This document shows positions 14,694-17,967 of a stretch of 64,000 nucleotides of DNA, piece by piece; positions within the stretch are counted from its first letter, which is position 1; each line of letters starts with the position of its first letter. Source of the stretch: Pirellulales bacterium (GTDB taxonomy: Bacteria > Planctomycetota > Planctomycetia > Pirellulales > JAEUIK01); assembly GCA_019636335.1 (NCBI GenBank), contig JAHBXR010000011.1, positions 62,001-126,000 on the forward strand. Direction: 5' to 3'. The notes under the pieces were generated by a model. It was not told the DNA's origin. It saw only the letters and a list, made by a program, of their open reading frames with translations, and did not search any database. Position numbers and translations under genes: made by a program.

Positions 14694-14860
14694 ACTGGCA
14701 AAGTCTTCTTTGCAAATTCCAAAACTCTCCCAGCCTGTCGCGACTTGCGAAAGTGGGATGATTGGGCTTGTCGGGCATTTCTGGCGAGGGTATGGATACT
14801 CTCTCTGACCTCGTGCGTCAGTAGCTTGTACGCCCCTTGCGGGACGGAGCCCGCCTGCCG

Positions 14861-16540
14861 ATGACCAGCCACGCCTGGGCCGAATCTGCGATACGCTGGG
14901 AAGTCGATCCCGGTTGGGACGACGTCGTGGCCGAGTTGCGCGACAATCCGCCGAAGGATTGGGGCGAATTGCCCGGCGCGGCGGTCGTCAAGTCGGGGCC
15001 GCATCGCGTCGTGTATCGGCTCGATCGGCCCCAGGGCTCGCTCTTCGTCAAGCACTATCGCAGTGCCGATTGGCGCGCACGGGTGCGGTCTCTGTTTCGG
15101 CCGAGTGCCGCGCGGCGCGAATGGCACAAGTCGGTCGAGATGCTCCGCCGCGGCGTGCCGACCATTCGCGCGGTGGCCTGGGGAGAGTCCAAACAGTCGG
15201 GCCTTGCCACCGACAACTTCTTCGCCAGCGAGGCGATCGCCAATGCCGTGGCGCTCGACGCCTGGCTGCGCGACATTTGTCCTCGTCTGGACCCGGCCAC
15301 GCGCGCACGGCAGCGACGCCAGATCGTCGATCGACTGGCCGACCTGACGGCGCGCGCCCATCGCGCCGGCGTCTGGCACGATGATTTTCACGCGGGCAAC
15401 ATCCTGCTCGCCGATGAGGGCCTTTATCTCATCGACGTGCCGGGCGTGGAGCTTGCGCGCGGGCCCCTCAACTGGCGTCGCACGCGTGCCAGCCTGGCGA
15501 TGCTCTGCTCCGGCTTGTTGGGGGACGCGACTCCTGGCGAACGCTGGCGTTTCTGGCGACGCTACCTGGCGGCCCGTCCCGAGTTGGCGTGCCGAGATGT
15601 TCGCGCAGCGGGCGAAGAGGTCCTGCGCGCGGCGCACTCCCATGCGCGCCGCATCTTCCGCGGGCGAGACCAACGGGCCTGGGAGGCGAACCGCGATTAT
15701 TATCATGCCCGGCTGACCTCGGGCCGCGCTTACGCGGTGCGCGACCTAAGGCCCGAGGAACTGCGCCGCGTCTTCGACGATCCCGCGCAGTTTCTCGGCG
15801 GCCAGGTCACGCGGCCGATCAAGCTGAGCCATACCAGCGTCGTCGTCGAGGCGAACGTCGAACTGGCAAACCGCGCCGCGCACGTGGCGCTCAAACGATG
15901 CCGGCCGAAAGCGTGGTGGAAGAATCTGCTCGCGCTGGTGCGGGGCACGCGCGCGCGAGTGAACTGGTATCGTGGGCAGGCGCTCGTCTCGCGGTTGATT
16001 CCGACGGCCCGTCCGCTGGCGATGATCGAAACCGGGGGCATCGCTTCGACTCGCACTGGCTACACGCTGACTGAGTGGATCGCCGGCGCCACGAATCTGC
16101 ACCTCTACGGCTGGGACCTCGCCGTGCGACCCGCGCACGAACGCCGGCGACGTACGAGACAACTTGCCCAGCGGCTGGGCCTGCTAGTGGGGCGCCTGCA
16201 CTTGTGGCGGATCTCGCACCGCGATCTAAAAGGGTGCAACCTGCTGGCCGCCGAGCGCGACGATCGCATCGACTGTTACCTGATTGATCTCGACGGCATG
16301 CGTATTCGGCGCTGGCTCACGCGGGCCACGCGCATGCGCGATCTCGCGCGGCTGGCGGCCAGTTGCCAGGCCCATCCCTGGCTGACAAGGCAGGACCGCC
16401 TGCGCTTTTTGCGCGCCTATTTCCGCGTGCAGGAGGACCCGGCCGAGCGCCGCGAGTGGAAACGCTGGTGGCGCGAGATCGAGGCCTGCTCGGCGGGCAT
16501 CGCGCAACGGCTGACCCGGCGCGGCGAGCCGGTCGTGTAG
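14861..16540 (+). CDS. Protein with two tandem WaaP/Kdo-kinase-like domains
   Basis: A 559-residue protein in which the kinase fold occurs twice. Domain 1 (about 45-245) has the ATP Lys64 in LFVKHYR, catalytic-loop HDDFHAGNIL (173-182) and metal Asp192 in LIDVPG. Domain 2 (about 320-545) has Lys345 in VALKR, catalytic-loop HRDLKGCNLL (453-462) and DLDG (476-479). The loops are of the WaaP/KdkA/RIO-related type, which phosphorylate sugars of the LPS inner core or related substrates. No transmembrane segment. Start is the ATG at 14861; an in-frame TTG lies 24 bases upstream. Both catalytic cores look intact. The substrate is unknown. Confidence 0.85.
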   Translation: MTSHAWAESAIRWEVDPGWDDVVAELRDNPPKDWGELPGAAVVKSGPHRVVYRLDRPQGSLFVKHYRSADWRARVRSLFRPSAARREWHKSVEMLRRGVPTIRAVAWGESKQSGLATDNFFASEAIANAVALDAWLRDICPRLDPATRARQRRQIVDRLADLTARAHRAGVWHDDFHAGNILLADEGLYLIDVPGVELARGPLNWRRTRASLAMLCSGLLGDATPGERWRFWRRYLAARPELACRDVRAAGEEVLRAAHSHARRIFRGRDQRAWEANRDYYHARLTSGRAYAVRDLRPEELRRVFDDPAQFLGGQVTRPIKLSHTSVVVEANVELANRAAHVALKRCRPKAWWKNLLALVRGTRARVNWYRGQALVSRLIPTARPLAMIETGGIASTRTGYTLTEWIAGATNLHLYGWDLAVRPAHERRRRTRQLAQRLGLLVGRLHLWRISHRDLKGCNLLAAERDDRIDCYLIDLDGMRIRRWLTRATRMRDLARLAASCQAHPWLTRQDRLRFLRAYFRVQEDPAERREWKRWWREIEACSAGIAQRLTRRGEPVV

Positions 16541-16558: not shown

Positions 16559-17485
16559 TCAGGTCCCCGCGGAGACCGGCACGTTGTCTTGCACCGGATC
16601 GATGTGCGTCCCGTCGTGACGGAAGACGCGGTTCCGGCCCGATTCCTTGGCGTGGTAGAGCGCCTCGTCGGCACGGTTGAGCAGGCTTTGCACGTCGTCG
16701 CCGTCGTGGGCCGAGGCAACTCCGCCGCTCACGGTGACCTTGGTATCGGCGATCAGATTGCGTTCCACGGTCATGCGCAATCGTTCGCAGAAGGTCGCCG
16801 CATTTTCGAGTTCGGTCTGCGGCATGATGATGACGAATTCTTCCCCGCCGTACCGGGCCACGACGTCCGTCTCGCGAACGCTGTCGCTCAGCATGGCGGC
16901 GAACGTCCGCAGCACGCGGTCGCCGGTGAGATGACCCTGCTCGTCGTTGATGTGCTTGAAGTGGTCGATGTCGAAAATCACGACCGAGAACGACTGGTCG
17001 TAACGGGTCTTCATGGCGAACATGCCGGCCAGCACTTCGTCGAGCGCGCGGCGATTGCGGACACCGGTCAACGGATCGGTGCGCACTTCGGTGAAGGCCA
17101 TCAAGTGCGTCATCTGCTGGCGCAGTTGGTCGTAGGCCTGGGCGAATTCATGGGCCAGACGCAAGGTCGGCTTGAGAAACTCGTCCGCTTCGTCGCACAA
17201 CTTCTTCCAGGTTTCGGCTTCTTCGTGCGCCGTGAGATCGTTCACGCGTTCCTTGAAGCGGGCCACGCTCGCGTGGTGCTTCGCTAGATGCTTGCGTACC
17301 GCGGCGCCAATGCGTTCCAGTTCGCGCGCCACCGATTGGGCACGCTCGATCTCGCGCTGCGCCTTGAGCGCGATCGATTCATCAGGCCGTTTGCGCCGCC
17401 GGCCGACCATGTAACCGATCGTCGCCACCGCGGCCAGGGCCACGGTAAAGTTCAATTGGGGTAGCCAACCAAACAATTCGTTCAT
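16559..17485 (-). CDS. Diguanylate cyclase (GGDEF domain)
   Basis: Makes cyclic di-GMP from two GTP. 308 residues from the ATG at 17483-17485, which follows a GGTGAG ribosome site. One N-terminal transmembrane helix (about 12-28) is followed by a coiled-coil-like basic linker (35-90), a helical segment and a GGDEF domain from about 135. The active-site loop is YGGEEF (212-217), and an inhibitory I-site RETD lies at 204-207, so product feedback is likely. It is downstream of a 44-residue membrane peptide gene on the same strand. Confidence 0.94.
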   Translation of the reverse strand: MNELFGWLPQLNFTVALAAVATIGYMVGRRRKRPDESIALKAQREIERAQSVARELERIGAAVRKHLAKHHASVARFKERVNDLTAHEEAETWKKLCDEADEFLKPTLRLAHEFAQAYDQLRQQMTHLMAFTEVRTDPLTGVRNRRALDEVLAGMFAMKTRYDQSFSVVIFDIDHFKHINDEQGHLTGDRVLRTFAAMLSDSVRETDVVARYGGEEFVIIMPQTELENAATFCERLRMTVERNLIADTKVTVSGGVASAHDGDDVQSLLNRADEALYHAKESGRNRVFRHDGTHIDPVQDNVPVSAGT

Positions 17486-17528: not shown

Positions 17529-17663
17529 CTAGTAGTTCGAACGCGAGCCAAAGCCGCGCAGGCAGAGCGCTCCCAGTACGAGGATGCCGATCATCACGAA
17601 CATCCAATCTTGCTTGTCGAAGTGTTCGACCGAGCGGACGACATGGTGATAGAGCTTTTCCAC
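17529..17663 (-). CDS. 44-residue single-pass membrane peptide
   Basis: A small gene reading from GTG at 17661-17663 to TAG at 17529-17531. The ribosome site GAGGTG lies 6 bases before the GTG. The peptide is an amphipathic, His-containing head (VEKLYHHVVRSVEHF), then DKQDW, a hydrophobic helix MFVMIGILVLGALCL and a short tail RGFGSRSNY. This is a plausible small membrane protein. It lies 43 bases upstream of the diguanylate cyclase start and probably shares its transcript. Function unknown; it would be missed by length-limited gene callers. Confidence 0.6.
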   Translation of the reverse strand: MEKLYHHVVRSVEHFDKQDWMFVMIGILVLGALCLRGFGSRSNY

Positions 17664-17885
17664 GCCAGGCACCTCGAGGGGGCGATGACCCTACAATCCA
17701 CGGGCTATCAAAGCCTAGTTCACAAATCCGTTCTTGCAGGCCCGGAGTGAAGCGTAAGTCTCCGCTGGCAGCCTGGGGGAAAATCCCCTCGTGGAGCCGG
17801 CGTTTCGCCGTTCGGGGGAGCCGGGAGCCGTCCGGATCTGTCCGTGAGGTGCGGTTGTAGGGATTCTCCAGCCCCGTAACACGCA

Positions 17886-17928
17886 CAAAAAAAAATGGCC
17901 CAGCGACGAATCGTCGTCGCTGGGCCAT
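17886..17928 (-). terminator. Intrinsic terminator of the FadR-type regulator gene
   Basis: Reading on the minus strand, a strong stem ATGGCCCAGCGACGA/TCGTCGCTGGGCCAT is followed by a run of T (A8-9 on the plus strand at 17886-17893). It sits 40 bases past the regulator's stop codon and also separates it from the cyclase gene. Confidence 0.9.
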
Positions 17929-17967
17929 CGTGGGGCTTATTGAATCGTGCGTGCGAGGGACGGCGGG

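Follow-up and report, generated by a model that had tools for sequence, protein, structure and literature searches.

A frame of 44 codons lies directly in front of a gene for a GGDEF protein in the genome of a Pirellulales bacterium, raising the question of whether so short a frame encodes a protein and, if so, whether that protein belongs with the enzyme beside it. The locus was analyzed within a window of 64,000 nucleotides (the whole stretch of DNA studied) and compared with genomes of the same order, class and phylum. On the minus strand (17529..17663), the frame reads GTG GAG AAG from 17663 through to TAG (17531..17529), giving 44 codons plus the stop and the peptide MEKLYHHVVRSVEHFDKQDWMFVMIGILVLGALCLRGFGSRSNY. 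Six bases 5' of the GTG, direct reading of the sequence finds a putative Shine-Dalgarno-like GAGGTG (minus strand, 17670..17675). These features agree with the preliminary description of the locus, which had reported the ribosome site, the GTG start and the length and had left the strand unstated. The GAGGTG itself includes an in-frame alternative GTG at 17672, nine bases upstream of the one at 17663, from which a 47-aa product would be made. Both starts are possible, since the nearest plausible starts in relatives, picked by rule rather than measured, mostly yield 44-47 aa.

With the peptide as the single query, relatives turned up in 41 of the 57 near genomes (its own genome counted), as against 4 of 57 (own counted; best foreign E 1.4e-5) for a control, a longer ORF of 84 aa on the opposite strand of the same DNA. 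A profile of 30 rows matched 138 of the 246 genomes of the order, at 144 places. Loss of the frame in relatives had been named beforehand as the outcome that would speak against a gene, and an in-frame stop occurs inside the profile match at none of these 144 places. Differences at codon positions 1, 2 and 3 number 416, 213 and 943 over 44 pairwise comparisons of close relatives (the pairs are not independent), and pN/pS, computed on eight pooled pairs that each represent a different group, is 0.25; in two of the groups the pair consists of two copies within one genome. The control comparison, the stop-free matches and the pN/pS value rule out a chance ORF. Judged by the conservation of its reading frame and its amino acids, the 44-residue ORF is a real gene, and the earlier remark on gene-calling limits can be accepted: the membrane peptide is genuine and falls in the size range that callers skip. 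Searches of the window peptide against Pfam, NCBIfam and PHROGs returned no family; for 34 members of the peptide family, Pfam likewise returned none and NCBIfam matched one member only, to TatA at E 0.0089.

The AlphaFold2 model of the peptide (mean pLDDT 83.9) places an amphipathic helix at residues 2-13, followed by a second helix at residues 17-40 (minus strand, 17544..17615). The latter is predicted to span the membrane from the model together with the hydropathy and flank charges of relatives, and the peptide thereby has the single membrane helix typical of small membrane regulators. Across 127 aligned relatives, G31 is invariant (127/127), while W20 is kept in 94%, G37 in 98% and R41 in 87%; the C-terminal tail is basic (RGFGSRSxY). 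Averaged over 92 relatives that adjoin a partner and are 36 aa or longer, the N-terminal flank carries 1.83 K+R and 2.60 D+E and the C-terminal flank 2.00 and 0.10; the corresponding values for 33 relatives detached from a partner are 1.79 and 2.03, and 2.21 and 0.18. By the positive-inside rule, these charges suggest a single-pass protein with its N-terminus outside and its C-terminus in the cytoplasm. The charged head, single hydrophobic helix and short tail first proposed from the letters are thus matched by hydropathy, flank charges and the structural model.

Downstream on the same strand lies the partner gene (minus strand, 16559..17485), encoding a membrane-anchored GGDEF protein of 308 aa (Pfam GGDEF, 8.5e-46). 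Its ATG at 17485 follows the peptide stop, whose last base is 17529, by the 43 bases originally given. AlphaFold2 predicts one N-terminal membrane helix at residues 13-31 (minus strand, 17393..17449) with the pattern VALAxVAxxGYxxG, in which G24, Y25 and G28 (GYxxG) are conserved in 96, 99 and 93% of 94 adjacent partners; this helix, too, is predicted to run N-out/C-in. A stalk of two long helices follows (residues 36-82 and 90-131; minus strand, 17093..17380), drawn from the AlphaFold2 model and from A3, an alignment of 34 sequences; the model has moderate confidence for stalk and membrane helix (pLDDT about 56-76). We defined the N-module of the partner as residues 1-134, preceding the GGDEF domain, and a Pfam search found no specific family for this membrane and stalk module. 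The GGDEF domain itself (residues 136-286; minus strand, 16628..17080) was delimited by Pfam and a motif check. It has the GG[DE]EF motif, as GGEEF, and the metal-binding Asp of diguanylate cyclases as well as an inhibitory-site motif, RETD (RxxD), and the window cyclase is predicted to be active because the GGEEF and RETD motifs are present.

Upstream of the pair, a terminator-like hairpin of 16 pairs followed by a T run (minus strand, 17894..17929) stands after a GntR/FCD gene. The scan found one such hairpin as compared with 1.8 expected in shuffles, and its stem is unusually long. Since the hairpin closes the GntR/FCD gene, a separate unit probably begins with the peptide and GGDEF genes; a promoter scan gave no match. 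Convergent to the GGDEF gene lies a long kinase of the Kdo/WaaP type (plus strand, 14837-16540; PF06293, 1.9e-29).

The pairing seen in the window recurs throughout the order. Of the 246 genomes, 100 contain the N-module, and 99 of those 100 also have the peptide, a co-occurrence counted within one order and uncorrected for shared ancestry. The peptide gene immediately precedes the module on the same strand at 94 places, spread over 92 genomes, with a median gap of 76 bases (range 21 to 532). The conservation and synteny with GGDEF genes that the preliminary description had put up for testing are borne out, and the linkage is real and well beyond chance. The one genome that has the module but lacks the peptide, G326 (86% complete), carries a module resembling the second paralogue of family f13. 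In G365 just nine bases separate the peptide from the edge of its contig and the module begins close to another such edge, so the two are probably adjacent, and in four f19 genomes (G024, G040, G048, G322) both genes are present on different contigs. A second membrane/stalk GGDEF paralogue, unlinked to the peptide, was observed in f13 at L108 (G326) and L109 (G018). A search for a second small membrane ORF before unlinked cyclases, at six loci, gave one weak candidate more than 460 bases away.

That the peptide regulates the cyclase, as had been suggested, is a claim of which the linkage stands and the regulatory part gained no support. A mutual information test between the peptide and the partner N-module (94 pairs) found no pair above within-clade shuffles, the observed maximum being 0.255 against a null mean of 0.267. 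The cyclase also appears too narrow a target. Of the 94 adjacent partners, 56 have an intact catalytic set (GG[DE]EF and the metal Asp) and 38 do not; in family f6 none of 35 has it (one of these, in G400, is truncated at the edge of its contig). Elsewhere intact sets prevail, with 14/15 in f15, 13/14 in f17, 4/5 in f2 and all adjacent partners in f1, f8, f11, f12, f13, f14, f16 and f18. Some partners retain the stalk alone. Among the 40 named loci, which overlap the genomes of the order-wide set and are not an independent sample, 23 have a module downstream of the peptide, and in four of these (L225, L229, L230, L233) the gene is stalk-only (130-146 aa), and the following 750 bases on that strand show no evident GGDEF sequence. 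The f15 partner of G189 (L157) is likewise a stalk-only protein of this size, with a stop codon, and at L077 and L081 a decayed GGDEF gene adjoins the peptide. The membrane helix and stalk of the partner track with the peptide more than the cyclase chemistry does. In two f4 genomes a stub of the module, 113-116 codons long, is located apart from the peptide. At L256 (G009) and L257 (G027), short ORFs remote from the peptide cover only the membrane helix of the partner and the first helix of its stalk.

The peptide is also found where no partner follows, a further respect in which the cyclase is too narrow a target. The module search gave no match in 39 of the 138 peptide genomes. When these 39 and four others were searched with a module profile, weak or partial extra matches appeared in G009 and G394 only, where the partner remnant is located elsewhere than beside the peptide; in two of the 39 a decayed GGDEF gene adjoins the peptide. 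For 11 of the 39, genome completeness is 95% or higher, the peptide match has E <1e-9 and neither search shows a module. In the reverse direction, the module profile gave one weak match in 36 sampled genomes with a marginal peptide match or none listed. The partnerless genomes and the near absence of the reverse case together imply that the peptide can dispense with the partner, whereas the reverse is very rare; this pattern, too, is uncorrected for shared ancestry. We fetched 53 loci, a chosen subset of the 144 places, in 20 of which a partner adjoins the peptide and in 33 of which none does; among these 33, two (L076, L102) have too little downstream contig to judge and two (L077, L081) are those with the decayed GGDEF gene. 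Fifteen of the 33 loci lacking an intact partner next to the peptide retain one or more of three flanking genes that also occur at partner loci (a Kdo/WaaP kinase at 8, a TPR protein at 7 and a DUF6793 gene at 8), and the position of the peptide would therefore be older than, or independent of, the partner. The kinases following the peptide at those eight loci are homologous to the Kdo/WaaP type of the window. A DUF6793 (PF20593) gene was also noted close downstream of peptide or partner at L110, L111, L113, L089, L114, L225 and L233, the Pfam match having been tested on one member (L130).

Several explanations can be offered for this pattern. The one that we favor, at what we judge to be even chances, is that the peptide is an accessory subunit of the downstream membrane-helix and stalk protein, with cyclase output optional. 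Topology, contact between peptide and partner, and effect on activity are the parts of this model that we infer. The short amphipathic helix (residues 2-13) would lie outside and the basic tail in the cytoplasm, while the helix at residues 17-40, with its invariant glycine, would pack in parallel against the GYxxG membrane helix of the partner. This packing may set the assembly of the two-helix stalk below, and in the window, where GGEEF and RxxD are intact, control of the stalk could tune c-di-GMP synthesis in a manner analogous to stalk-binding SiaC on SiaD. Alternatively, the peptide may have an independent housekeeping role in the membrane and simply keep its chromosomal place, with the GGDEF neighbor sharing its transcript. 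This we rate somewhat below an even chance: it would account for the partnerless genomes, the near-complete ones included, and for the flanking genes kept around peptides that stand alone, and the negative mutual information result places it close behind the subunit model. It does not readily explain why the module occurs without the peptide in just one of 100 genomes, and the tight spacing and common strand at 94 places would have to be maintained by inertia alone.

The short gap and shared strand would also suit a leader peptide whose translation merely opens the start site of the downstream gene. We consider this very improbable, as it is the amino-acid sequence itself that is conserved, notably at W20, G31 and G37, the gaps vary from tens to hundreds of bases, and the peptide is retained where no partner follows. 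Type I toxins are small and have a single membrane helix, and in both respects the peptide could be the toxin of a type I toxin-antitoxin pair; its presence as one copy at a fixed position in nearly all carriers, with vertical spread within one order, makes this the least probable of the explanations. Returning to the accessory subunit, the peptide often outlives the enzyme part of its partner and is therefore probably not just an enzyme switch but the older member of a small membrane partnership. A more far-reaching proposal, tentative and in our estimate unlikely, is that the peptide and the GYxxG helix with its stalk form a two-part membrane device peculiar to the Pirellulales, with a conserved job that is structural or sensory, to which the cyclase is an add-on that decayed throughout family f6 and elsewhere was lost altogether, with stalk-only partners as the remainder. 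If this is true, the sensor half of such a signaling assembly would predate its enzyme and be better preserved.

As a kind, small membrane proteins that partner larger proteins are already known. MgrB (acting on PhoQ), KdpF and AcrZ are small single-pass regulators of larger membrane proteins, and the window peptide resembles them in having fewer than 60 residues and one helix and in its presumed action on a larger protein of the membrane. It differs in lineage and in that its partner is a GGDEF stalk protein, and Pfam and NCBIfam searches found no sequence relation to regulators of this type. SiaC is a soluble protein, whereas the window peptide is a membrane helix; an N-terminal membrane anchor of SiaD is not known to be part of the SiaC-SiaD system. 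The likeness lies in a separate small protein proposed to act on the stalk of a cyclase. According to the published account, SiaC of Pseudomonas aeruginosa binds SiaD stalks and promotes active dimers (PMC8457831). SiaD is the closest in fold to the partner stalk and GGDEF domain (best Foldseek match 7e6g, SiaD with its activator SiaC, E 3.0e-19), a match that rests mainly on the GGDEF domain, given the moderate pLDDT of stalk and membrane helix. This best match, together with the stalk architecture, makes control through the stalk plausible. Partner residues 61-287 match NCBIfam diguan_SiaD at 173.1 bits against a cut-off of 290, and the partner is therefore not a SiaD; a PDB sequence search with the peptide profile returned no chain at E up to 1, hence no relation of the peptide to SiaC. 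With membrane-anchored diguanylate cyclases the window partner shares the GGDEF domain, GGEEF and RxxD, and it differs from them in that its membrane and stalk module pairs with a peptide and outlives the active site.

As far as our searches of family libraries and literature reach, the peptide family, its order-wide range and a partner with an optional enzyme are new; the open-access literature searched yielded no planctomycete pair of small membrane protein and cyclase. Planctomycete c-di-GMP signaling is hardly explored in that literature, and small membrane proteins are usually missed. The family provides a small protein spread across the order, together with a candidate partner and defined residues (W20, G31, G37 and R41 in the peptide; G24, Y25 and G28 in the partner), and natural variants with active, dead and stalk-only partners make the target of the peptide directly testable.

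The range of the peptide appears to lie within the order. In a class sample, 63 of 297 genomes were matched, 59 within the order and four outside, the latter marginally (E 3e-4 to 9e-4) and with no GGDEF gene found in their 6-kb loci. Two of these four are chance matches, to one cysteine-rich protein and one long protein; of the remaining two, the first is doubtful and the second (G169, L137) is a possible distant relative. In a phylum sample, five of 294 genomes were matched, one of them (G471) outside the order, where the match sits in a frame containing TAG and was rejected. Wide distribution beyond the order is thus not supported by the class and phylum samples. Named loci with the peptide are planctomycete, many of them from Pirellulales MAGs, apart from one chance match of 12 residues, in Clostridia (L255), which was dropped. 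The marginal match at L137, from another order of the class, is to a frame ending MDHLSPQDYCIMLVFAIAIGYCLLKGQDV and resembles a distant peptide relative. Nearly all genomes carrying the peptide have one copy. In G335 and G037 the pair of peptide and partner is present twice per genome; G335 is listed with 7% contamination, and one of its pair copies may be foreign.
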